A stretch of DNA of 64,000 nucleotides from Anaerolineaceae bacterium. Lineage in GTDB: Bacteria > Chloroflexota > Anaerolineae > Anaerolineales > Anaerolineaceae. The notes under the pieces were generated by a model. That model saw only the letters and a program-made list of their open reading frames with translations. It was not told the origin of the DNA and did no database searches. Where the stretch lies: contig JAENZI010000016.1 in NCBI GenBank assembly GCA_016841365.1, forward strand, positions 1-64,000, read 5' to 3'. Below, piece after piece: positions 5,310 through 28,745 of the stretch; position 1 is the stretch's first letter, and every line of letters begins with the position of its first letter. The position numbers and the translations under genes are program-made.

Positions 5310-5690
5310 ATGACATCGAACAAACGCCCCCCAGCCAGCGAGGTCGGCTTTTATGTAGAGCACTTCACCCGCGCCGAAATGGCAGACCTGGACCGCGCCC
5401 TGAACGAGTCGCTGCGCGGCGAGATCGGTATGCTGCGGGTGGTCATGCGCCGCTTCTTTGAGCGCGCCGCACAGGACGCAGACGACCTGAAAGTGCTGGC
5501 GGATGCGCTGCGTGTGCTGGGTTTGAGCTGCGCCCGGCTGGCAAAGGTGATCCAAACCGAGCGCTCCCTGCAGGATAAGCGCGCTGACGAGCTGGGCGAG
5601 GCGCTCTCGCGCTCGATGGCAGCGGTGCTGGAGGAACTGAGCAGCGCCGGGCTGAACCACGGCGCTAGGGGAGGTGCCCATGGCGGATGA
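5310..5690 (+). CDS. Phage-island helical protein (small-terminase position)
   Basis: 126 aa, overlaps the next ORF; first gene of the head cluster upstream of TerL; role by position only. Confidence 0.5.
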   Translation: MTSNKRPPASEVGFYVEHFTRAEMADLDRALNESLRGEIGMLRVVMRRFFERAAQDADDLKVLADALRVLGLSCARLAKVIQTERSLQDKRADELGEALSRSMAAVLEELSSAGLNHGARGGAHGG

Positions 5691-5958
5691 TGCCAATGCC
5701 CTGCTGACCGAACAGCTCAGGCACGCCAACCACCTGCTGCAGGCGCAGATCCGCGCCCTGCAAGCAGAGCTGGCGCACCATCAAGCGATGAACGCCCAGC
5801 GCCTGGGCGCACTTGAGGAGCAGATGCGCGACCACGAGAAGCGCATCCGCACCGCGACGGAGGGCGTGACCCAGTTCAAGCTGTTTTCGGGGCTGGCTTC
5901 TGGCGGCTCGGGCTTGATGTCGCTGGTCGCCATGCTCAAGGCGTTTTTGGGCGGATAG
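5674..5958 (+). CDS. Coiled-coil protein with C-terminal hydrophobic segment, phage island
   Basis: Heptad-rich LTEQLRHANHLLQAQIRALQAELAHHQ, C-term GLASGGSGLMSLVAMLKAFLGG. Confidence 0.5.
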   Translation: MPMADDANALLTEQLRHANHLLQAQIRALQAELAHHQAMNAQRLGALEEQMRDHEKRIRTATEGVTQFKLFSGLASGGSGLMSLVAMLKAFLGG

Positions 5959-5966
5959 GGGGCTGG

Positions 5967-7499
5967 TTGACAAACCTTGTGGAACTGCTCAAGAAGGTGC
6001 TGCGGGATGTGACGCTGTTTGTGCGCGCTACGGGCGGGTTGAAGCTGCGCCGCTACCAGGATGATGTGGCGCGGGCGGTGGTCAACTCGGTGGTGCACCG
6101 CAAGGGGCTGACATTTGTGGTGATCTTCCCACGTCAATCGGGCAAGAACGAACTACAAGCCCAAATCCAGGCTTACCTGCTGACCCTGTTTTCGAACCAG
6201 GCGCAGGAGATCGTGCAGGTCTCGCCCACCTGGCGGCCGCAGACCGAGAACGCCATGCACCGCCTCGAATCGGTGTTGAGCCGCAACCTGATCGTCAAAG
6301 ACCGCTGGGAGAAGCATTTCGGGCACATCTACCAGGTGGGGCAGGCGCGCCTGGTATTCCTTTCGGGGTCGCCTACCGCCAACATCGTCGGCGCGACAGC
6401 CAACCTGCTGCTCTCGATCGATGAGGCACAGGACATCCTGACCGAGAAATTTGACAAGGACATCGCCCCCATGGCAGCCAGCACAAATGCCACCCGGGTG
6501 TTTTGGGGCACCGCTTGGACGTCGAACACCCTGTTAGCCCGCGAGGAAAAAGCTGCCCGGGCGCTGCAATCTGCGGACGGGGTTCGGCGGGTGTGGCGTC
6601 TGAGCTGTGAACAGGTCGCTGCCGAGGTGCCGCCTTATGGCCAGTTTGTGGCGGAGCAGGTGGCTAAATTAGGGCGAAATCACCCCATGGTGCGCACGCA
6701 ATACTATTCGGAGGATATTGATGCCGATGGGGGTCTGTTCCCGCCTGAGCGGCTGGCGCTGATGATCGGGGTACACCCCCCGCAAACCCAACCCCAGCCA
6801 GGCTGCCTGTATGCCATGACGCTGGATGTGGCTGGTGAGGATGAGTCCACCGGGGAGGAGGCGAGCCAGCTTGCCAACCCGGGGCGGGATGCGACCGCGC
6901 TAACGATCGCCCGGGTCAACCTGGCGACGCTCAAAGACCCTGCCCTGGGCCTGCCCACCTATGAGATCGTCTTCCGGCAGCAGTGGATCGGGGTCAAGCA
7001 CACCGCGATCTATGCCCAGATCCTCAGTTTGGCGTCCACCTGGCGAGTGAAATACCTGATCGCCGATGCCACCGGGGTCGGAGCAGGGCTGACGGCTTTC
7101 CTCTCCCGTTCGCTGGGGGGCAGGGTGATCCCGTTCCAGTTCAACAGCCGCACCAAGTCGGACCTGGGCTGGGCATTTTTGGCGATGGTGGACAGCGGCA
7201 GGCTGAAGGATTACGCGCCACAGGATGGGCAGGGCGGCGAACTGGGGGCGCTACACAGGCAGTTTCTCGAACAGCTCAGCGCCACGCAATACGAGATCCT
7301 GCCCGGCCCGGAGAAAAAGATCCGCTGGTCGGTGCCCGAAAACGCCCGTAACCCTGCCACAGGTGAGCGCATCCACGACGACCTGGTGATCGGCGCCGCC
7401 CTGCTCTCGCAATTGGACTTAATGCCCTGGTCCCACACCAGCCCGGCAGCCGTGGTCACCGCCCGCGACCCGCTGGAGGAGATAGACAGGAGAAAGTGA
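5967..7499 (+). CDS. Phage terminase large subunit
   Basis: Walker A-like FPRQSGKNE, Walker B LLLSIDEAQDI, nuclease-like TLDVAGED and LIADATGVG; TTG start. Confidence 0.85.
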   Translation: MTNLVELLKKVLRDVTLFVRATGGLKLRRYQDDVARAVVNSVVHRKGLTFVVIFPRQSGKNELQAQIQAYLLTLFSNQAQEIVQVSPTWRPQTENAMHRLESVLSRNLIVKDRWEKHFGHIYQVGQARLVFLSGSPTANIVGATANLLLSIDEAQDILTEKFDKDIAPMAASTNATRVFWGTAWTSNTLLAREEKAARALQSADGVRRVWRLSCEQVAAEVPPYGQFVAEQVAKLGRNHPMVRTQYYSEDIDADGGLFPPERLALMIGVHPPQTQPQPGCLYAMTLDVAGEDESTGEEASQLANPGRDATALTIARVNLATLKDPALGLPTYEIVFRQQWIGVKHTAIYAQILSLASTWRVKYLIADATGVGAGLTAFLSRSLGGRVIPFQFNSRTKSDLGWAFLAMVDSGRLKDYAPQDGQGGELGALHRQFLEQLSATQYEILPGPEKKIRWSVPENARNPATGERIHDDLVIGAALLSQLDLMPWSHTSPAAVVTARDPLEEIDRRK

Positions 7500-7735
7500 A
7501 TGGTGAGTGGGGAGTGGGGAGTTGGGATTTGGTAACAGGTATTAGGTATTAGGTATCAGGTAATGGGTGTCAGGTATTAGGTATCAGGTATTAGGGATGA
7601 GGAGACATCTTGCTACACGCTACAAACTGACGACTATCAGCTAACCCTTTCAACTTCCAGCTTAAAGCTTACAGCTATTCGCTACCAGCTACCCGCTACA
7701 AGCTATCCGCTACTTGCCACCCGCTAATAAATAAC
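7500..7735. repeat. Degenerate short tandem repeats: (GGTATTA/C)n followed by (AGCTAYCCGCTAC)n
   Basis: ggtattaggtattaggtatcaggtaatgg... then cagctattcgctaccagctacccgctacaagctatccgctac. Confidence 0.75.
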
Positions 7736-7747
7736 AAGGATAAAACA

Positions 7748-8509
7748 TTGCCCAACACACAATTTGCTTTCGGAATCGACCTTTCCCGCTACAACACCTC
7801 GCCCGACGGCAGGCAGCGGCCGGATTTTGACGTGATCGCCGCGCACCAGCCCGAGGTGACTTTCATCGCCATGCGCGCCGGCATCTCCTGGGGCTACCAG
7901 GACCCGTGGTTTGCCTATTATTTTGCCGAGGCAACCCGCATCAACCGGGTGCGGATGGCTTATCACGTGCTCTACCCGGGCGAATCCGCTTTAGCCCAGA
8001 TGGATAACTTCTTCCGCATCCTGGGTGAGATTGATTTTGACTCTGTCCCGCTGGTGCTGGATTTGGAATTGGACCATGGGCAGACGGTGAGCTGGATCAC
8101 CCAATGCACGGTTGAAGCGCTCGACCTGCTCAAGCGCCGCACGGGGAGCACACCCTTTATCTATTCCCGGGCAGGCTGGGTGAACCAGTTCTTGCGGGTG
8201 CGCGACCTGCCCCCGGTGCATTGGTGGCTGGCGCAATACCGCTGGCCGCGCCCATACCCGCTGTTCACGCCTGAATATGCCTGCCCGCCAGCCCTGCCGG
8301 AGGGCGTATGCACCTGGACGGTGCATCAGACCACCAGCCGGGGTGCCTCGATCGGGGCGCAGGCGATGCACTACATGGACTATAACCGCTGGAACGGGAC
8401 CAAGGCGGACCTGCTGGCGTTTGTCGGTCAGAAAGCGCCCGAGCCGCTGACCTGCCCGGTGGACAGTCAGCCCTGCCCGCGTTTATTTACACAGGATGAG
8501 GCGGGGTAA
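7748..8509 (+). CDS. GH25-family lysozyme (endolysin)
   Basis: FGIDLSRYN, VTFIAMRAGISWGYQD, VPLVLDLEL, PFIYSRAGWVNQFL, WWLAQY, CTWTVHQTT; TTG start. Confidence 0.8.
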   Translation: MPNTQFAFGIDLSRYNTSPDGRQRPDFDVIAAHQPEVTFIAMRAGISWGYQDPWFAYYFAEATRINRVRMAYHVLYPGESALAQMDNFFRILGEIDFDSVPLVLDLELDHGQTVSWITQCTVEALDLLKRRTGSTPFIYSRAGWVNQFLRVRDLPPVHWWLAQYRWPRPYPLFTPEYACPPALPEGVCTWTVHQTTSRGASIGAQAMHYMDYNRWNGTKADLLAFVGQKAPEPLTCPVDSQPCPRLFTQDEAG

Positions 8510-8542
8510 CCAAAATTTTAGGATCTGCGAAAGGAACCTGCA

Positions 8543-9937
8543 ATGCCCAATATCATCAACCGCATTTTATCGCCGCTGATTGAGAAGTCCGTCAGGGAAC
8601 ACCTGTCGATCAGCGAAACGGACAGCACCTTTTTAGTCGGAACACGCCGCTATGATGAAAGCGAACGCGACCGCCTTGAATATGACCGGGGGGCGGTGCT
8701 TGAGCAGTGCTTGGACGCGTGGCGCACCAGCCCCCTGGCACGGCGGATTGTGGAGCTGACCAGCCAGTATGTGGTCGGGACGGGTTTTGACCTGCACTGC
8801 GAGCACCCGCCGACCAGCGCATTTTTGCATGCGTTTTGGCATCACCGCCTGAACCGGATGCCTTCACGCCTGGTTGAAATGTGCGATGAGCTGACCCGCA
8901 CCGGCAATTTGTTCGTGCTGGTCAGCACAGACCGGGCGGGAATGTCCTATCTGCGGGTCATCCCGGCATCGGATATCGACGCGATCACCCCGGCGGAGAA
9001 TGACATCGAACAGCCGGTGAGCTTTACCACCAAAGCTGATCAAGACCTGCAGACGCACACCTACGCCGCCTACGACCCGCTGACGGATAGCCCGGATGGG
9101 GAAGGCGCTTTTCAACCCGTGACGCTGCACTACAGCATCAACCGGCCAGCAGGGGCGCAATGGGGCGAACCGGATCTTGCACCGCTGTTGACCTGGCTGC
9201 GGCGTTATGCGGCTTGGCTGGAAGACCGTGTGCGGTTGAACCGCTTCAGGAATGCCTTTATGTATGTGGTGCGAGGGAGTTTTGTGAGTGAGGAGGCGCG
9301 CAAAGCCCGGCAGAGCCAGCTTGCAGCCAACCCGCCCAGCCCGGGGTCGATTTTGGTATGTGATGAGAGCGAAACCTGGAGCGTGATCACGCCCAAACTT
9401 GAAGCCCAGGAGGCGATGCAGGACGGGCTGGCGATTAAAAAGCTGATCGCGTCGGGTGTCGGGATCCCGCTGCACTTTTTGGCGGAACCGGAAGGCTCGA
9501 ACCGCACCACGGCGGAGAGCGCAGGCGGGCCGACCTTCCGCCGCTTTGAACAGCGCCAGCAGTATTTTCTGTGGCTGGTTGGGGATCTGCTGCAGGTGGT
9601 GACTGCGCGGCGGGCAATGGTCGTGCATTCAGTCGATCCGGGTGCACCGGTTGCCATTTCCGGCCCGGATATCTCTGCGAGGGATAATGTCGCCCACTCG
9701 ATCGCCTCGGTCAACATCCTGAACGCCTTCGAACGCCTGAAGGATATGGGCTTGATCTCGGATCGGGAGCTGCTGCGGGTGCTCTATCGCTTTGCGGGTG
9801 AAGCCGGTGACCTGGACCAGATTTTGGCTGCGGGCTCGGGGGTTGACCAGCGCCAGCCAGGTGAGATGGTTGACGCGATCAGCAAAGACCCGGTTAACAC
9901 CGCCACTGGTGAACCGAAGGCGGCTGTCATGCCGTAG
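8543..9937 (+). CDS. Phage portal protein
   Basis: LARRIVELTSQYVVGTGFDL, ASGVGIPLHFLAEPEGSNRTTAESAGGPTFRRFEQRQ; located between terminase and capsid genes. Confidence 0.75.
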   Translation: MPNIINRILSPLIEKSVREHLSISETDSTFLVGTRRYDESERDRLEYDRGAVLEQCLDAWRTSPLARRIVELTSQYVVGTGFDLHCEHPPTSAFLHAFWHHRLNRMPSRLVEMCDELTRTGNLFVLVSTDRAGMSYLRVIPASDIDAITPAENDIEQPVSFTTKADQDLQTHTYAAYDPLTDSPDGEGAFQPVTLHYSINRPAGAQWGEPDLAPLLTWLRRYAAWLEDRVRLNRFRNAFMYVVRGSFVSEEARKARQSQLAANPPSPGSILVCDESETWSVITPKLEAQEAMQDGLAIKKLIASGVGIPLHFLAEPEGSNRTTAESAGGPTFRRFEQRQQYFLWLVGDLLQVVTARRAMVVHSVDPGAPVAISGPDISARDNVAHSIASVNILNAFERLKDMGLISDRELLRVLYRFAGEAGDLDQILAAGSGVDQRQPGEMVDAISKDPVNTATGEPKAAVMP

Positions 9938-10013
9938 GCGTAGTTCACCAGGTGTGCGCCGCTCGCATCCTGGTATGACACGAGTATCCGATTCAGTCTG
10001 AATATCAATAGAG

Positions 10014-12035
10014 GTGTTTATGAAAAAATCAGAACCAAGAGGGATGACCCAGCATCAGACGCGGTTTTCTGCCACCGGTCATGCGCTGGAACCCGGTAAG
10101 TTTGAGATCCTGTGCATCACCGCTGGGGACGGCAATGGCTGGCACTTCCCGGCAGAGGTGCTCAGGGCGTCGCTGGCGCTGTGGGAGGGCGTGCACTGCT
10201 TTATTGATCATGCCTGGGCTTCCCGTTCCATCCGCGACCTGGCCGGGCAGGTGATCGAACCCCGCTGGGATGAGAGCTCCCGGGGCATCCGCGCCACGCT
10301 CAAGGCTTTCGGTCCGGGCGGCGCCGTCCTTTCCAAATTTGGGCGGGAGGTGCTGGCGGAATCGCACGCGCCAAAAATCGGCTTTTCGGCAGATGTGGTC
10401 TTCAAATCAGAGGGGCGCAAGGTTAGAGAGATCGTTAAGGTGATCTCGCTGGACCTTGTTTTCGACCCGGCGCGGGGCGGAGCATTTTTGCGGGCATTGA
10501 ACAGTGCCGCGCCGCCTGGCAGCGATCCCAATCTGCTGAATGAGACAAAACCACAGGAACCAATTTCAACCCAACTCACACCTTACGGAGGAAAAACAAT
10601 GTCAGACTCAAAAAATGTTGCACAAGAAGTAAAGAAGGATGATCAAGATCGTAAAGATATCCGTCAAACCCAATTGAGCCAGGTGGTTGAGGAATCCCGT
10701 CAAGCGTGTTTGCAGATGTGCGGCTTTATGCTGGAATCGGGCCTGGGGGCCTCAAATCTGCCCAAACCGGTTCAGGCGCGGATCAGCGCGCAGTTCAAAA
10801 ATCGGATCTTTGAAGTGGACGAACTACAGAGTGCGATTGCCGAAAGTCGAACGATGCTTGCTGAGCTGAGCGCTGGGCAGGCGGTGATTGGCCCTGGGCG
10901 CATCAGCGGTATGTATGATGAGCTGGATAAACTGCAGGCAGCGGTGGATGATCTTTTTGGCCTGCCGCGCGCGCAAAAACTGCAGACTGTTTCCGTGCCA
11001 AGGTTGAGCGGTGTGCGTGAGCTGTATCTGATGCTGACCGGCGACCGCGACCTGCACGGCGGTTATTACCCCGACCGGGTACAACTGGCAACTACGGTGG
11101 ATTTTACCGGCCTGGTCAAAAACGCGCTCAATAAGATCGTCACGAACACCTGGGAGATGCTCGGACGGGCGGGCTATGATTGGTGGCAGCAGATCACCTT
11201 GCAGGAGCATTTCACATCCCTCAACAGCATTACGGGCACATTGATCGGCACGGTGGGTGAATTGCCCGTCGTGGCGGAAGGTGCGGAATATACCGAGCTG
11301 CAGGTGGGAGACAGCCCTGAGTCTGCTGATTTTGTCAAATATGGCGGGTATATCCCTCTGACGTTGGAGTTGATTGACCGGGATGAAACCCGCAAGCTGA
11401 AGGCTTATGCCCGCGAGCTGGGTTCTGCTGGTCTGCGCAAGATCTCATCGCTGGTGTCAGCGATCTTCACCGCAAATGCCGGGGTTGGCCCCACGATGGC
11501 GGATACCGGTGCGCTGTTCAATGCGACCGCAGTCACCACAGCAGGCGGGCACGCGAACCTGTCCACATCCGCATTGGATATGGCTGCCTGGGACGCTGCT
11601 TGCACGGCTGTCTATAACCAGCCGATGCTGATCAAGAATGCCGCAGGCTTATATGGCAACGGCCCCAAGATGGCGATTAACCCCAAGTTCTGCCTGGTGC
11701 CGCGTGCACTACAGAACACCGCCTGGCAGATGCTCAAGGGCGAATTCGTGCGGGAAGCCTCTTATGTTTATGACAATGTGCTCAAGGGTTCCGCTGTGCC
11801 CGTCACCGTGCCGGAATGGACGGATGCAGGGGATTGGGCGGCGGTGTGTGACCCGGCAGTCTCCCCGGCGATCTTTGTGGGTGAGCGGTTCGGCATCATG
11901 CCCGAGATCTATGTCGCCGGGGATGAGCTTTCACCAGCCGTCTTCATGAACGACGAACATCGTCTCAAAGTCCGCCACTTCCTCGCCGTCTGGGTTAATG
12001 ACTTTCGCCCGCTCCATAAATCAAATGTGGCGTGA
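10014..12035 (+). CDS. Fused prohead protease-major capsid protein
   Basis: N-terminal protease-like region (HAWASRSIRDLAGQV.., HAPKIGFSADVVFKSEGRKVREI) then coiled-coil/delta region and capsid-like C-terminal domain. Confidence 0.65.
   Translation: MFMKKSEPRGMTQHQTRFSATGHALEPGKFEILCITAGDGNGWHFPAEVLRASLALWEGVHCFIDHAWASRSIRDLAGQVIEPRWDESSRGIRATLKAFGPGGAVLSKFGREVLAESHAPKIGFSADVVFKSEGRKVREIVKVISLDLVFDPARGGAFLRALNSAAPPGSDPNLLNETKPQEPISTQLTPYGGKTMSDSKNVAQEVKKDDQDRKDIRQTQLSQVVEESRQACLQMCGFMLESGLGASNLPKPVQARISAQFKNRIFEVDELQSAIAESRTMLAELSAGQAVIGPGRISGMYDELDKLQAAVDDLFGLPRAQKLQTVSVPRLSGVRELYLMLTGDRDLHGGYYPDRVQLATTVDFTGLVKNALNKIVTNTWEMLGRAGYDWWQQITLQEHFTSLNSITGTLIGTVGELPVVAEGAEYTELQVGDSPESADFVKYGGYIPLTLELIDRDETRKLKAYARELGSAGLRKISSLVSAIFTANAGVGPTMADTGALFNATAVTTAGGHANLSTSALDMAAWDAACTAVYNQPMLIKNAAGLYGNGPKMAINPKFCLVPRALQNTAWQMLKGEFVREASYVYDNVLKGSAVPVTVPEWTDAGDWAAVCDPAVSPAIFVGERFGIMPEIYVAGDELSPAVFMNDEHRLKVRHFLAVWVNDFRPLHKSNVA
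10586..10601 (+). promoter_or_regulatory. Internal Shine-Dalgarno and in-frame ATG inside the protease-capsid ORF
   Basis: cggaggaaaaacaATG; ATG at 10599 is in frame (codon 196), giving MSDSKNVAQEVKKDDQ. Confidence 0.6.
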
Positions 12036-12328
12036 GTATGCTCTGGCGAATAAGTCCTCGACCGTTACTCCTGAAGCGAAGCGAAGAGGAGTAATGACTT
12101 TCGCCCGCTGCATAAATCAAATGTTGCGTAAGTATGCTCTGGCGAATAAGTCCTCGACCGTTACTCCTGAAGCGAAGCGAAGAGGAGTAATGACTTTCGC
12201 CCGCTGCATAAATCAAATGTTGCGTAAGTATGCTCTGGCGAATAAGTCCTCGACCGTTACTCCTGAAGCGAAGCGAAGCGAAGAGGAGTAATGACTTTCG
12301 CCCGCTCCACAAATCTAATGTCGCGTAG
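12000..12328 (+). repeat. Tandem array: 96-, 96- and 101-bp units plus a terminal partial copy, each beginning with the capsid C-terminus DFRPLHKSNVA-stop
   Basis: Unit starts 12000, 12096, 12192, 12293; 60-nt linker identical apart from a 5-bp GAAGC insertion; 36-nt coding cassettes differ only synonymously; stops TGA, TAA, TAA, TAG. Confidence 0.9.
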
Positions 12329-12331
12329 TCT

Positions 12332-12360
12332 TGTCATTGCGACGAAGGAAGCAATCTCTC
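12332..12360. repeat. Partial REP-like dispersed repeat
   Basis: TGTCATTGCGACGAAGGAAGCAATCTCTC. Confidence 0.65.
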
Positions 12361-12484
12361 GTTTATCTTTTAGCCACAAGCTGGGTGCCCTCAAGGCACA
12401 CCAGCGAAGTGCCAGGCGGCAGGAGCCGCCGGCTAAGCTACCAGCTATTAGCTATCAGCTTAACCCTACTCACCAATCACTATA

Positions 12485-12538
12485 GACTGAAGCGGCGTCA
12501 AGCCGCATCAGTCGTATGCCAAATTCACGAGAATTTGG
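12485..12538 (+). other. Two adjacent hairpins upstream of the holin-like gene
   Basis: GACTGAaGCGGC-gtcaa-GCCGCaTCAGTC and CCAAATTC-acga-GAATTTGG. Confidence 0.65.
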
Positions 12539-12556
12539 CCCTCACAGGAGCCACAC

Positions 12557-12766
12557 ATGTCCAAACTCAAACAACTTCTCACATCCCGTAAATTCTGGGC
12601 TGCACTGGTCGGCCTGATCCTGGTGATCGTGAAAGCCTGGCAGCCCGACTTCCCTCTGTCGGAAGAAGACCTGACGACCCTGATCTATGTGCTGGTGGCT
12701 TACATCCTCGGCACAGGAATCGAGGACGGCTTGAGCCGCACACAGGTCATCAAGAAAATCAATTAA
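12557..12766 (+). CDS. Small membrane protein, holin-like
   Basis: 69 aa, FWAALVGLILVIVKAW and LIYVLVAYILGTGIEDG; phage context. Confidence 0.55.
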   Translation: MSKLKQLLTSRKFWAALVGLILVIVKAWQPDFPLSEEDLTTLIYVLVAYILGTGIEDGLSRTQVIKKIN

Positions 12767-12774
12767 CCCTTTAG

Positions 12775-12812
12775 TCCTGGGGGGCTTGCGTTTGCGAGCT
12801 CCCCCAGGAGGG
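12775..12812 (+). terminator. GC-rich hairpin CCTGGGGG...CCCCCAGG
   Basis: Inverted repeat in intergenic gap after the holin-like ORF. Confidence 0.5.
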
Positions 12813-12832
12813 CTTGAATGAAAGGACCTACG

Positions 12833-13042
12833 ATGCCGACCAAACCTGATACTTACGAGATTGCCGCCAGCCTTGCGGGCGGTGAACCGCTTGACTTCAA
12901 ACGCTATCCAGATGGGGGCCTGGTGGTGATTGCACCTAACGGTCAAAAGCTGCGCTTTTCCGCCCGGCAGGTGGCAGCAGCCGCAGCAAAGGTAAAGCGC
13001 GCTGCGACCTTAAAGCCTTCCCGCCCATCCAAATCTTCCTGA
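12833..13042 (+). CDS. Hypothetical small phage-island protein
   Basis: MPTKPDTYEIAASLAGGEPLDFKRYPDGGLVVIAPNGQKLRFSARQV; colinear with the island. Confidence 0.5.
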   Translation: MPTKPDTYEIAASLAGGEPLDFKRYPDGGLVVIAPNGQKLRFSARQVAAAAAKVKRAATLKPSRPSKSS

Positions 13043-13121
13043 TTTGAATGATGCAAAGGCATGTTTTCATCCCCGTCAGCACATTCATAAATTGATTGAT
13101 TTTATAAGAATTGAGGTTTTT

Positions 13122-13550
13122 ATGTCCATCACACTTTCGTCCGTTCGAGACCAGCTCGAACGCCAGCTTTTCGATACCGCTAACCTCACCTGGCCTGCTG
13201 ATGTGCTTGACGAGGCCTTGCGTGCTGCCCTGGCAGACCTTTCGACATCTTATGGTACACCGCTGACCCTGCAAGACCTGGATGGGGCATTGCTCACCAC
13301 ATTCGAAGAGCATGACCTGGCTTGCCTGGTCGCCGGCGGGTCGGCATACTGCCTGCGGTTCCGTCTGACGCGTAAATTTGAAGAAGCCATCCCCAGCACG
13401 GAAACGCCGCTCGACCTTGCCCAATGGGCAACGGACGCGATGGCGCATTTCCAGAGCTTGCTGACGCTGGTGCGCTTGCGTAAATTTCAGCAAAACCTCG
13501 ATCAACCCTATGCCGGCTGGACGTGGGAGGAAGGGAGTGATTTCTCATGA
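13122..13550 (+). CDS. Phage head-tail connector/adaptor-like protein
   Basis: ATG at 13122 in frame with the longer track ORF; helical, size and position typical; overlaps next ORF by 4 bp. Confidence 0.45.
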   Translation: MSITLSSVRDQLERQLFDTANLTWPADVLDEALRAALADLSTSYGTPLTLQDLDGALLTTFEEHDLACLVAGGSAYCLRFRLTRKFEEAIPSTETPLDLAQWATDAMAHFQSLLTLVRLRKFQQNLDQPYAGWTWEEGSDFS

Positions 13551-14878
13551 ACCAGATAGCCATTGGTGAACCAGGGGCATGGACGGTCCTGGACGGTGCC
13601 GGGGTGGCAATGCCCTTCGTCTCGGCTGCGATGATTTTTAACTATTCATCGGAGGAAAGAGTTAGAGAAAGCGTTGAGATGAAATTATCGGGCACACCGG
13701 CGCAGCTTTCCGCAGCACTTGCGGCGATCGAGACCATTCGGCTGCGCGCATTAGCTTATGCGCGGGGTGAATATGTCTCTCCCCAATACCTGCGCTTTTG
13801 GCCTACGGATGCAGACCTTTATTACTACGCCCAAATGGATGATATCTGGATAGAAACCAACCCGGATGCCTATATCACGCGCCAAAAAGGCTCACTGCTG
13901 ATCATCCTGCACTACACGCGCCACAACCACTTTGATGGAGATGAAATCCCCCTGCCCCTCACCGGCCGGATCGGCGAGGACCTCACCACGCCCATCCCCA
14001 TCCTCAACCATACCTCGACCACATCTTCACCCAGCTCTACCCTGCTGGCCAAAGCCGAGCACGCCGTCACGCACCTGCCAGCACCCCTGCGGATTGAGGT
14101 GGCAAACACCCGTCTTTCGACCACCTTCCGTTCGCTGTTCATCGGCCTTTACCACCATCCGACCCATACTGGCGATGAGAACTTCTTTGTCAATGCCGGT
14201 TCCCTCACCGGCGGCACCCTCTACCCCGACGCGGGTGCCATCGACGGCAACTACCGCCGCGTGACCTGGACATCATCCGCCTGGACCGACCTGCTTTCGC
14301 ACCCCATCCCGCCGAATTATGCCGTGGCCGATGACGGCCGCACCTTCCGGCCCATATTGCACCTGCGCAACACCCATGTCTATAACCTGCACCTGCGCCT
14401 GTCGCTGATCCGAGATGGTTCGGTGCTGCAGACCTGCGAACCGGTCTATTCCCCGCCCAACTGCAATTACGTCCTCTTCCCGCCTTTGCAGATCCCGCCC
14501 AACCAGCTATTACGCGAGCTTTCGCCCCTCACACTTGACCTGCAGCTCTCGGGTCTGCGCGAGACCGGTGCGGCGTCCACCCTCGATGTGGACCAGATCG
14601 CCTTGTTCCCCCTGGATGGTGCCGCCTATTTTCAAGGCTTCACCCACCTGGACCAGCACGATGTGCTGATCGACGACAGCCACCGGGGGATCTCGGTGGT
14701 GCGCGATGAGAACACCCACGAGACCGTGGCGCACCTGCGCCAGGGTGGACCCTTGCTTTTATATCCCAACGAGAACACGCGCTTCTTCTTTGCCATGATC
14801 AACAGCAGCAACCTGATCGACATTGACCAGACCGCCTCGGTCCAGATCACATACCGCCCGCGGGTGAGGGTGCTATGA
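13547..14878 (+). CDS. Hypothetical phage structural (tail-like) protein
   Basis: 443 aa, beta-rich; translationally coupled with both neighbours by 4-bp overlaps. Confidence 0.45.
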   Translation: MNQIAIGEPGAWTVLDGAGVAMPFVSAAMIFNYSSEERVRESVEMKLSGTPAQLSAALAAIETIRLRALAYARGEYVSPQYLRFWPTDADLYYYAQMDDIWIETNPDAYITRQKGSLLIILHYTRHNHFDGDEIPLPLTGRIGEDLTTPIPILNHTSTTSSPSSTLLAKAEHAVTHLPAPLRIEVANTRLSTTFRSLFIGLYHHPTHTGDENFFVNAGSLTGGTLYPDAGAIDGNYRRVTWTSSAWTDLLSHPIPPNYAVADDGRTFRPILHLRNTHVYNLHLRLSLIRDGSVLQTCEPVYSPPNCNYVLFPPLQIPPNQLLRELSPLTLDLQLSGLRETGAASTLDVDQIALFPLDGAAYFQGFTHLDQHDVLIDDSHRGISVVRDENTHETVAHLRQGGPLLLYPNENTRFFFAMINSSNLIDIDQTASVQITYRPRVRVL

Positions 14879-16398
14879 GCTACACTATATCTTTTCTCTC
14901 ACGTGACTTTGCGTCGCCGGTCTTCATCGGCTTGCACGCTGAACCCCTGCAGCTCGCCTGGTCAGCCTTTGGCGGCCCAGATTTCGCCAAAATCCAGCTT
15001 ACCGGTCCGGCAGAACTACTGATCGAGGCCGCTGGTTTATTGCGCTGCCCGGTGACTATTTCCGATCAACGTGGCACTAAGGTCTGGTGGGGAGTTGTCG
15101 ACACAATCACAATTCACAGGGACCAGACACAGATCAAGGTCTCACTGGAGGACGTGTTTAACAAGGTCAAAGTGGCGTATTCTTTCATTTCCCCCGACAA
15201 CCGCCTGGGTGACCGGCGCGTGACCGCCTACGCCTCGGATCTTGCTTCGCAGACCGAGTACGGCGTCAAAGAAACCGTCCTGCAGTATGCTGACCTGGAT
15301 GATGTCTATGCCGAGAGCCTGCGCGACACCTTCCTCAACCTGCACGCCTGGCCGAAGTCAACGCTGTCCAGCCTTGAAAGTCCTGCTGCATTAGTCGAAT
15401 TGCACTGCTCGGGTTGGTTCCACACCCTCGGTTGGTCAGCCTATGACAACGCGCAGGGTTTCTTTGCCAACTATGGTCCGGGACCCGGGTCGATCAACTT
15501 TGGCCGCCCGAACTGGCGCCTGCCATCCCAGATGATCAGCACCGGCGACACCTCGCTCAAGGTGAAGTATGTCTACTTCCAAATGCGCCGCAACGGCACC
15601 GCCGCCGGTGAGACATATGCCCGGGTTTACTCGAATTCCGCCGCCACCCCGAGCACCATTCTCGGTGCCTCGGAGGTGGTCTATGCCAGCACATTGCCTT
15701 CGCAAACCTACCAGTGGATCAAATTTACCTTTGCTACCCCCGTGACGCTCAATGCCCACACTGCCTACTGGGTCAGCGCCTATTACCCCGTCACCGATCC
15801 CGTGAACAACATCGTCCTGCGCACCGACGAAAACGCCACCTATTTTCAAGACAATCACTTTGCCAAATACAACGACGCCGGGACCTGGAAATTCATCCCC
15901 AACATCACCTCACCCGGAACCAATCCGCATCTGATCTTTCGTGTGGTGTGTGTGGCGGATACCGGCGAGCAGATCCTCAATACTGCCACCGCTGGCGGTC
16001 AGTTCTTCGAGCGCATCACCGGCCTGACGACCAGCGTCGAGACCTGTCCCTACCAGCGCAATCCTATCTCAGCCCAGAAGCGCCTCGAACACCTGATGAC
16101 CCTCGGCACTGCGGACCACCGAATGGTGCTGGCAAGCGTATCCGCCAATCGCCACCTGTCCTTTTATGAGCAGCCCGACTCATCCACCCCACCCGTCTAT
16201 ATCACCAGGAACGGACGCTTCTATACCTTCCAAGGCATCCCCATCCCACCCGCTCAACCGCCCGTGGGACAGTTTGCCGCATTAGCCAACACTGCCCGGG
16301 TCAGCCATCCCTTTGATCAGCATCGCCTGCCAACATGCTTTGTGCGCAATGCCCTGCTCAACACCATCACTGGTGTGATTCATATCAATAATGAGTAA
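14875..16398 (+). CDS. Phage tail-like protein with an internal beta-sandwich insertion
   Basis: N- and C-terminal tail-like regions flank TSLKVKYVYFQMRRNGTAAGETYARVYS...FTFATPVTLNAHTAYWVSAYYP, resembling extracellular jelly-roll domains. Confidence 0.45.
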   Translation: MSYTISFLSRDFASPVFIGLHAEPLQLAWSAFGGPDFAKIQLTGPAELLIEAAGLLRCPVTISDQRGTKVWWGVVDTITIHRDQTQIKVSLEDVFNKVKVAYSFISPDNRLGDRRVTAYASDLASQTEYGVKETVLQYADLDDVYAESLRDTFLNLHAWPKSTLSSLESPAALVELHCSGWFHTLGWSAYDNAQGFFANYGPGPGSINFGRPNWRLPSQMISTGDTSLKVKYVYFQMRRNGTAAGETYARVYSNSAATPSTILGASEVVYASTLPSQTYQWIKFTFATPVTLNAHTAYWVSAYYPVTDPVNNIVLRTDENATYFQDNHFAKYNDAGTWKFIPNITSPGTNPHLIFRVVCVADTGEQILNTATAGGQFFERITGLTTSVETCPYQRNPISAQKRLEHLMTLGTADHRMVLASVSANRHLSFYEQPDSSTPPVYITRNGRFYTFQGIPIPPAQPPVGQFAALANTARVSHPFDQHRLPTCFVRNALLNTITGVIHINNE

Positions 16399-17846: not shown

Positions 17847-19550
17847 TCAATCGATGCCGTAGATGTCAAGCCCGATGCAAGATTTAACCTCGCCATTGAC
17901 CTCGACAAACCAGATGCCGTCTTGAAAGACAGGGTAATCCTCAAGGCTTTCAGCAAGACCCTGCAGCAGTTTTTGAGCTCGGCTTCGGCTGAGATGAGAG
18001 GATGTCCATGTGGCGGACTCTGCCTCATACAGCACGGCTGCATTGCAGGCGAGAACGCCGCCAATCTCATCCCTGAGCCAATCCGGGGTTTGTGCATCCT
18101 GGTAGAATGCCGATAATTTCGACACAGAATCAGCCGACAATAACGCCAAATATCCCGCATCAAGCTCAGGTTCCTGGGCATCACCCGTCCCATCGATCGC
18201 CCGGGTCACATTTTGTTCGACGATGAACCGATCAATGTTGAGGATGTTGATGGTCAGACCAAACCCGAGGATGAAGCAGATCAGGAGGAAAGCCAGGCGT
18301 TCCAGGTTTTTCGTGATCTCGAGGGCGGCAATACCTAATAGCAGTAACCCGATCCACACCATCATCACATGGGCGAGGGTGCGCAGACGGGTGAAACCGT
18401 AAGCAACCTCGTAAAGCGTTAGCCGGGTGTAGGCTGAAGCCAGGATGAGGGCAACCAGGGCAACCAGTGTTAATCCGAATGCTGAAAACAGCCTACTCTG
18501 CTTTTTACCCGCCCGTTTGGTGACCATGCTGAGGATGTAGAACAAAACCACGCTGATCACCGCCACCACAATCAGTTCAAAGAACCCCCGTCGGGCGTAT
18601 TCCGCATAGGTATAACCTTCAGCAGAGATGTTCCTTCCCCCGGAGAAGAGATAGCTAAACTGGAGGATAACGAATAAAAGAAAGAGAAGGTTCACGCCGC
18701 CCAGAACGATATTGGCTTCGATCGAACCCAGGAAGGGAGGGATGATCGGCTTTTTCTGGGCATCGGGTTTGAAGGTTTTGCTCTTTACATAGGCGAAATA
18801 ATAGACTGAAAGTAAAACATAGGCGATAACCAGGATGTAGGCCAGCCTGAAGATTGTATCGCCTAGATTATCAACCCTAAACCACGAGAAAAAGTTCTGA
18901 AGACGGTCATTGAAGATGGGGTCGGCTTGTGAGAGCAGCGAGGCTAATACTGCCAGGATGGGCACAGCGATCAATACCCCGCGCAGATAAGGTGCAGCCT
19001 GTCTGAGGAAAGACTTTTGTCTTCGGCTGTCCTGTGCAGCCGGAATCGGGGTTTGTTCCGGCTCAAGATTTTCAGCCGCATTCTCAGGCTGCTCGGATTG
19101 GGGGGGCGATTTAGGATCATCGTGATTTTTTTTGAAGAACAGGATCGCGCCGCTAAAAAGAGTCAGGAGATATTGAAAGCCATATTCGATGTAATCTCTC
19201 AGGCGGTAGTGATGCCAGGCGCCGTTGCGCAAAGTGATGGAAAATAGCAGCAGCAAACCGATGGTGATCAAGTTGTTGGTTACAGTGGTAAACGGTTCGG
19301 CGCGCACAAAGGTCATCCCGGCAAAAAAGACGATTGGGATCAACAGGATGTAGGACATGAATGGGATGTGCGTTTTCTCAACCCAATACGGAATCAGTCC
19401 AGCAAGGAGGGCAATCAGCACAAACAGGAAGAAGTTGACCCCGTAGGAGGTCTCCCAAAAAAGCTGGTCAAACGCGATGGCTGTGATTAAGGCACCTATC
19501 CAAAAAAGGTGTTTGCGTGTTGTTTTCATAATTTTCCTTTTGATGGGCAA
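17847..19550 (-). CDS. Polytopic membrane protein, DUF4153/DUF4173-like
   Basis: Multiple TM segments; GFTRLRTLAHVMMVWIG, NLERLAFLLI, NIDRFIVEQNV. Confidence 0.65.
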   Translation of the reverse strand: MPIKRKIMKTTRKHLFWIGALITAIAFDQLFWETSYGVNFFLFVLIALLAGLIPYWVEKTHIPFMSYILLIPIVFFAGMTFVRAEPFTTVTNNLITIGLLLLFSITLRNGAWHHYRLRDYIEYGFQYLLTLFSGAILFFKKNHDDPKSPPQSEQPENAAENLEPEQTPIPAAQDSRRQKSFLRQAAPYLRGVLIAVPILAVLASLLSQADPIFNDRLQNFFSWFRVDNLGDTIFRLAYILVIAYVLLSVYYFAYVKSKTFKPDAQKKPIIPPFLGSIEANIVLGGVNLLFLLFVILQFSYLFSGGRNISAEGYTYAEYARRGFFELIVVAVISVVLFYILSMVTKRAGKKQSRLFSAFGLTLVALVALILASAYTRLTLYEVAYGFTRLRTLAHVMMVWIGLLLLGIAALEITKNLERLAFLLICFILGFGLTINILNIDRFIVEQNVTRAIDGTGDAQEPELDAGYLALLSADSVSKLSAFYQDAQTPDWLRDEIGGVLACNAAVLYEAESATWTSSHLSRSRAQKLLQGLAESLEDYPVFQDGIWFVEVNGEVKSCIGLDIYGID

Positions 19551-27336: not shown

Positions 27337-27409
27337 GCCGAGTTAGCTCAGTTGGTAGAGCACGCGACTGAAAATCGCGGTGTCCACAGTTCGATTCTGT
27401 GACTCGGCA
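27337..27409 (+). tRNA. tRNA-Phe (GAA)
   Basis: Full cloverleaf: acceptor GCCGAGT/ACTCGGC, D-stem GCTC/GAGC, anticodon arm CGCGA-CTGAAAA-TCGCG, T-arm CACAG-TTCGATT-CTGTG. Confidence 0.95.
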
Positions 27410-27419
27410 CCTTGTGTTT

Positions 27420-27455
27420 AAAGAGGCTGTTTCCAATCGGAAACAGCCTCTTTGT
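27420..27455 (+). terminator. Rho-independent terminator downstream of tRNA-Phe
   Basis: AAAGAGGCTGTTTCC-aatc-GGAAACAGCCTCTTTgtt, 15-bp stem. Confidence 0.85.
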
Positions 27456-27469
27456 TCTCTGGTGTCTTT

Positions 27470-27660
27470 GTTTTAGCTGGTCTCATTTGTTCTCGCTGGT
27501 CTCATTTGTCCTCACCAGCGAGATTGCATTGCGCTCGGTCAGGAGACCGGCGCAAACAGCCAAGGCCGGCGCAAACTATGAAACTACAGCAAACAGAAGC
27601 GATTCTTCTTGTTCTCGCTGGTCTCATTTGTCCTCACCAGCGAGAAAGCATTTAGCCATT
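27470..27660. repeat. Dispersed repeat family 2, copy A
   Basis: TCTCGCTGGTctcatttgtcctcACCAGCGAGATTGCATTGCGCTCGGTCAGGAGACCGGCGCAAACAGCCAA; recurs at 28.4 and 28.6 kb. Confidence 0.8.
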
Positions 27661-27890
27661 TTGTTTTGAACTGCTCATAAATTAGATTTTCTTACCACCT
27701 TTCACAGATTGAATCCGTACCCAAATTATGCTATAGTGGACTTATATAATATTTCTTAATTTTCCCCATTGTGAAAACATCATATCTGCACCGCTAATAT
27801 ATGCTGCTCATGGAAAAACTTTAGCATCAAATTCCATTGAAGAGATTAGATCAGATTGTGCCAATTTTCTCTTGAGCCGAAAGGTCGTGT

Positions 27891-28271
27891 GTGATGAAAT
27901 TTAAAACATTAATGATCATCAAAGCTGTGGTATGCATTGGTCTTGGGATTCCAATTCTGATCGTACCTAAATTTTTCTATTCTCTTTTTGGTGTGAGCCT
28001 TGACTCTGCGGGTGTAATCCCGGCGTGGGAGTATGGTGCATCCCTGATGGGGAATTTTTTCCTGACCTGGTTTGCACGAAAATCCGAGGAGTCTATCGCC
28101 AGACGCGCATTGATTGTTGGGATGACGGTTTACAATACCATTGGATTTGTTGTCATGTTAATTGCTGTTATTAATGGGTCAGCTAATCTCTTGGGCTGGT
28201 CGGCTGTTGCGCTGTATTTATTCTTCGCGCTCGGTTTTGGCTTTTTTTTGATCAAACCACCCAAGCCGTAA
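27891..28271 (+). CDS. Small membrane protein
   Basis: 126 aa, four hydrophobic segments. Confidence 0.55.
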   Translation: MMKFKTLMIIKAVVCIGLGIPILIVPKFFYSLFGVSLDSAGVIPAWEYGASLMGNFFLTWFARKSEESIARRALIVGMTVYNTIGFVVMLIAVINGSANLLGWSAVALYLFFALGFGFFLIKPPKP

Positions 28272-28426
28272 ACTGTTTTGTTTTTCGCCAAAATTTCATA
28301 GAATAAATCGGTCTTACCATTCATCTGTCCTAGATTGAGCGTGTGTTAAGTGTGGAAAACAACGCGGCCTGAAGGCGCGCCTGATCTTTGTCACCACCAC
28401 ACTAAGATCTGATTTATTACATAGGC

Positions 28427-28745
28427 GCTTTGTTCTCGCTGGTGTCCTCACCAGCGAGATTGCTTTGCGCTCGGTCAGGAGACCGGTGCAAACAGCCAAA
28501 GACCGGCGCAAACAGCCAAGGATCGGCGCAAACTATGAAACCACAGCAAACAGAAGCGATTGGCGGAAACAGAATGAGAGCTTAGTTCCCGCTGGTGTCC
28601 TCGGCAGCGAGATTGCTTTGCATTAGATCGGGAGACCTTTGTTTTCTCTGGTGTCTTTGTTCTTGCTGGTGTCCTCACCAGCGAGATTGCATTGCGCTCG
28701 GTCAGGAGACCGGCGCAAACAGCCAAAAACCGACGCAAACAGAGT
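28427..28745. repeat. Dispersed repeat family 2, copies B and C
   Basis: TCGCTGGTgtcctcACCAGCGAGATTGCTTTGCGCTCGGTCAGGAGACCGGTGCAAACAGCCAAAGACCGGCGCAAAC, then a second copy from about 28583. Confidence 0.8.

Follow-up and report, generated by a model that had tools for sequence, protein, structure and literature searches.

The 64,000-nt stretch analyzed here (the window, from an Anaerolineaceae bacterium for which Anaerolineaceae and Pelolinea MAGs were found as relatives) carries a compact phage-like cluster at positions 5310-16398. Its genes encode a terminase large subunit, an endolysin, a portal protein, a fused protease/capsid protein and a holin, together with unassigned products, and neither an integrase nor a tail protein family was recognised in it. 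The fused gene (10014-12035, forward strand) specifies a head-maturation protease and an HK97-type major capsid protein of the Phage_capsid_4 family (PHROG 29592/133/4523; PF25209, E = 1.7e-25). Homologues of the window cluster were found at loci L002-L037 and L045-L124. The capsid gene is present in 99 of the 146 family genomes and in 50 of the 64 good-quality ones, nearly always as a single copy and never with an internal stop, and its tree tracks the genera (11 label changes, the minimum for 12 genera). Six congeneric capsid pairs with 89-93% amino-acid identity gave pS values of 0.45-0.62 and dN/dS ratios of roughly 0.05-0.07; the gene is under strong purifying selection. Because the cluster is intact and nearly always single copy, the capsid tree is congruent with the genera and dN/dS is low, the head-gene cluster looks like a vertically inherited, domesticated, gene-transfer-agent-like system across the Anaerolineaceae. 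A literature search for gene transfer agents in Anaerolineae found no paper.

Directly at the end of this gene, at 12000-12328, the capsid C-terminus is re-encoded in tandem, as a preliminary description of the locus had claimed. Reading the sequence gives four 36-nt cassettes and three linkers in the order C1-L-C2-L-C3-L'-C4, all on the forward strand, and TRF detected the array independently (11996-12327, period 96, 3.4 copies, 94% match). All four cassettes encode DFRPLHKSNVA followed by a stop codon. C1 (12000-12035, TGA) is the translated 3' end of the capsid ORF, C2 (12096-12131, TAA) is an untranslated copy and C3 (12192-12227, TAA) is identical to C2, so that the four copies represent three cassette types and not four. 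Linker 1 (12036-12095) is 60 nt long and identical to linker 2 (12132-12191); linker 3 (12228-12292) has gained 5 nt, a single GAAGC unit in the hairpin loop, and no substitution separates the three, which bears out the earlier account. The last member of the array is C4 (12293-12328, TAG), the most diverged copy, which is followed by its own non-array flank and not by a linker. This flank contains a REP-like interspersed element (12333-12358, GTCATTGCG...GCAATCTC), the motif of which recurs in other intergenic regions. Owing to the 96-nt period, the +1 frame is open through the array (11998-12291), and in that frame the cassette changes are nonsynonymous.

Each 96-nt unit folds into two hairpins, with z-scores of -3.0, -2.8 and -2.5 against shuffled sequences for units 1-3, respectively. 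Hairpin A, present in every unit (12000-12056 in the first), pairs GACTTTCGCC at the start of the cassette with GGCGAATAAGTC in the linker. Hairpin B (12065-12094) consists of TTACTCCT and AGGAGTAA around a loop of GAAGC repeats, and its 3' arm abuts the next cassette; this arm terminates in TAAT, and the same four bases precede the cassette within the gene. Since both hairpins outperform shuffles, the array could be a selected 3'-untranslated device that stabilises or terminates the capsid mRNA, the cassette being kept for the part it plays in hairpin A with the linker. In two relatives from IMG/VR (L047, 4734-4790; L048, 7402-7458) an inverted repeat, TGATTTTAGACC/GGTCTAAAATCA, with one mismatch in L048, likewise encloses the capsid 3' end including the stop codon. 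However, hairpin B is not followed by a T-run, the base exchanged between C1 and C2 at position 15 affects potential pairing with the linker, such an array is missing from most relatives, and selection on RNA structure would not preserve synonymous codons in untranslated copies. We regard such a device as the least probable of the explanations weighed here.

C1 and C2 differ by 3 nt, C1 and C4 by 5 nt and C2 and C4 by 5 nt, and all of these differences are synonymous or exchange one stop codon for another, in agreement with the preliminary description. The probability that random changes in a 36-nt cassette are all synonymous is 0.018 for three changes, 0.001 for five and 1.4e-4 for six; on the statistical base of these 36 nt, drift in dead copies would rarely produce a synonymous-only pattern (about 1e-3 to 1e-4). 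The contrast between variable cassettes and constant linkers is present but weaker than had been implied, as it rests on the one usable pair, C1 plus linker 1 against C2 plus linker 2, with changes at 3/36 and 0/60 positions (p = 0.05 if all sites are considered equal; p ~0.002, by our own arithmetic, if only the ~nine synonymous or stop sites are counted). Over these few sites, the silent differences among cassettes are of an order comparable to those between congeneric capsid genes, and divergence of that level accumulated in place would have left many changes in the 60-nt linkers. The improbability of synonymous-only change under drift in dead copies, together with linkers without substitutions, therefore indicates that the cassettes accumulated their differences as coding sequence in different genomes before they came to lie side by side.

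These observations bear directly on the simplest alternative, a tandem duplication followed by drift in place. Duplication across a stop codon is neutral, a hairpin-free example exists at another gene (see below), and the identity of C2 and C3 shows that some of the units arose by ordinary duplication. The earlier argument that plain slippage is insufficient nevertheless holds for the array as a whole: drift would not have confined changes in dead copies to synonymous ones, the substitution-free linkers adjoin cassettes with a divergence like that of congeneric species, and the array terminates in a cassette where duplication would have left a linker. Duplication with drift is accordingly a very improbable source of the complete structure.

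Two other origins had been put forward, namely an element that restores the gene end and has inserted several times, or recombination with diverged capsid alleles. The former would involve a small hairpin-ended element entering between TTAAT and GAC and supplying a replacement 36-nt gene end. The unit would have a hairpin close to each of its ends and would regenerate its own target, and capsid ends are re-encoded in three genera; confinement of the element to one gene would also account for the missing copies elsewhere. Nonetheless, the searches yielded no positive support for insertion. The linker has no second occurrence in its own genome outside the array and is absent from IMG/VR and from the 146 other family genomes, and no donor for it was found in IMG/VR or the family genomes. 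A linker-side match in one family genome (G023; 83% over 35 nt, E 0.001) was taken as chance, there being no cassette beside it. The pattern of hairpin B, allowing up to 3 mismatches, was found only within the array and thus does not show the dispersal of REP/BIME repeats. No recombinase was recognised among the cluster proteins tested, although a helper could act in trans. The start points of the duplicated stretches differ in the three genera (about -37, -30 and -65 relative to the stop codon) and the adjoining linkers are unrelated, which argues against a fixed insertion site, and the identity of C2 and C3 together with the shared linkers indicates local duplication. We therefore consider an insertion element very unlikely. 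A specific and marginally less probable version would be a minimal two-hairpin DNA element that homes to the capsid end, brings along a synonymous version of the last 11 codons, has inserted repeatedly and has unrelated analogues in two other genera; if such an element had built the array, its way of homing would be new, but the evidence points elsewhere. None of the known element classes considered fits: the integron attC core GTTRRRY was not seen by eye; the changes are not restricted to adenines and lack the template/variable asymmetry of diversity-generating retroelement repeats; and two hairpins per unit recall IS200/IS605-like ends, but at a single locus.

We compared capsid 3' ends and their flanks at about 108 loci. 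The flank after the capsid gene is rich in repeats and hairpins in many relatives, and re-encoded capsid ends were found at only three loci, one each in the window, G068 and G199, every one from a different genus. The cases in the two other genera are independent, and the three share neither linkers nor breakpoints. A fourth locus (L020 in G021) carries a 21-nt duplication across the stop codon. In G068 (L024/L121, G068:C53:1-330) the capsid end, CGCCCGCTGCATAAGTCCAATGTCGCCGGCTGAGAAA, occurs in at least three copies. Every additional copy immediately follows the arm of a palindrome, and the contig breaks off within the array; we looked for a second contig carrying this array and found none. 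As its cassettes are mutually identical, G068 shows duplication only.

In G199 (L101, G199:C13, about 60.9-61.1 kb) a second copy of roughly the final 65 nt of the capsid gene lies 187 nt downstream, and within the duplicated part the copies differ only by CGC/CGT and GCG/GCT, both synonymous. The first copy has AGGTAGGGGCG after it and the second has AGGTACGGGCG, two versions of the post-capsid palindrome of the genus. A REP-like inverted repeat lies between the two copies. Judging from the sequence, the synonymous-only differences and the separate version of the native hairpin after each copy make this locus look like two alleles, each with its own flank, joined end to end.

Such joints could in principle be created by assembly, with the capsid alleles of co-occurring strains falsely joined end to end. 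A chimera of this kind would explain, with no biological event at all, both the synonymous-only differences and the change of flank behind C4. The window genome is in 19 contigs and another of its arrays is broken by ten Ns, indicating that assembly of repeats was difficult, and the G068 contig terminates within its own array. On the other hand, there are three linker-to-cassette junctions, leading into two cassette types, within 329 nt free of Ns, and three false joins involving the same linker are unlikely. The G199 parallel, carried by a contig of 634 kb in an assembly with about 20 contigs, makes a chimera less likely again. We judge an artefact of this kind to be unlikely, although not negligibly so.

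Hairpin-associated illegitimate recombination between capsid alleles, followed by expansion of the unit and allele exchange, is the explanation we favour and consider reasonably likely. Of the two origins proposed in the preliminary description, recombination with diverged alleles is the better supported, and the independent case in G199 strengthens it. A joint between two alleles is favoured because plain duplication of a cassette plus linker would end in a linker, whereas the array ends in C4 with a different flank. First, an illegitimate joint would have connected the downstream flank of one allele (stop codon, linker and hairpin B ending in TAAT) to the last 36 nt of another, at a junction of TAAT with GACTTT, giving a gene end, a linker and a second gene end; the shared TAAT suggests that the joint could have used these 4 nt of common sequence. 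Second, slippage or unequal crossing-over may have multiplied the cassette-linker unit, producing identical C2 and C3, identical linkers and one GAAGC slip. Third, homologous exchange with other alleles, assuming that homology between the capsid alleles of different strains stops at the stop codon, would have replaced the outer C1 and the gene body, and C4 with its right flank was possibly replaced likewise. The alleles represented by C1, C2 and C4 are known here from one genome and not from separate strains, and near-identical cassettes, sought in IMG/VR as same-species alleles, were not found there. As the joint lies after its stop codon, the capsid gene stays intact; the event is neutral and nothing selects against the array. 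The extra cassette copies are probably not used, and the array is probably an unusual but non-functional footprint.

Gene-end duplications at other genes were sampled in stretches of the window genome (G000) and of G199. A screen of 1023 gene proxies over 1.25 Mb turned up a single clear case at a protein gene other than the capsid gene, an FmdB-like gene in G199 (L149, about 6427, G199:C13), the C-terminus of which, LGSDSGGTMDVDI, is re-encoded 58 nt downstream as LGSDAGGTMDVDI; this is a simple tandem duplication without a hairpin, with a Ser-to-Ala change in the copy. Set against three capsid loci in ~108, this one case in ~1000 suggests that the capsid gene end is prone to such events, although few cases are involved, the window array was known before the count was made and the filters were not the same for the two counts. 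TRF detected four arrays with a period of >=40 in the sampled part of the window genome, namely the present one, one after a tRNA-Met gene, one inside a long ORF and a REP array. An intergenic array of about five 136-nt REP-like units lies at L147 (9602-10260, G000:C6). Within the window, a dense set of related 20-90-nt repeats with the motifs CACCAGCGAG and CCGGCGCAAAC occupies 27447-28742, after a tRNA-Phe gene (27337-27411). The tRNA-Met locus (L128, 19096-19480, G000:C3) consists of a tRNA-Met(cat) gene and a period-82 array (about 19160-19480, the one interrupted by ten Ns) of sequence resembling the tRNA 3' end and a terminator hairpin. Its units thus resemble those at the capsid gene in combining a gene-3'-end-like sequence with a hairpin, but an insertion separates the untranscribed copies from the real tRNA end, and the hairpin is a typical terminator with a T-run.

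Among known systems, the tyrT/tyrV region of Escherichia coli (rttR/tpr locus) is comparable in that tandem units lie directly downstream of a gene and include its 3' end; in the capsid array, too, the units run head to tail and contain the end of the upstream gene. In E. coli K-12 we found a 178-nt period and 3.1 copies, the array extending over the final 19 nt of tyrV. There, however, the gene is a tRNA gene and not a protein gene, the unit is 178 nt and not 96 nt long, and the units are annotated with a small RNA and a short protein, while the capsid array is known here from sequence alone. A literature search on the tyrT repeats found no useful paper. Integrative elements at tRNA 3' ends similarly supply a replacement gene end that keeps the gene intact and repeats its end, whereas the capsid locus has the 96-nt unit only, with no element body, integrase or fixed core. 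The hairpin linker with its GAAGC-rich loop also sits, like REP/BIME palindromes, among such repeats in Anaerolineaceae, but it has no copy elsewhere in the genome and never occurs apart from a cassette.

If our reading is correct, the array is a small, readable record of how diverged alleles of a phage-type capsid gene recombined, in which the coding position would have protected each allele until the joint was made. Tandem copies of gene 3' ends, known from an E. coli tRNA gene, would then also arise at the ends of protein genes, beside hairpins.
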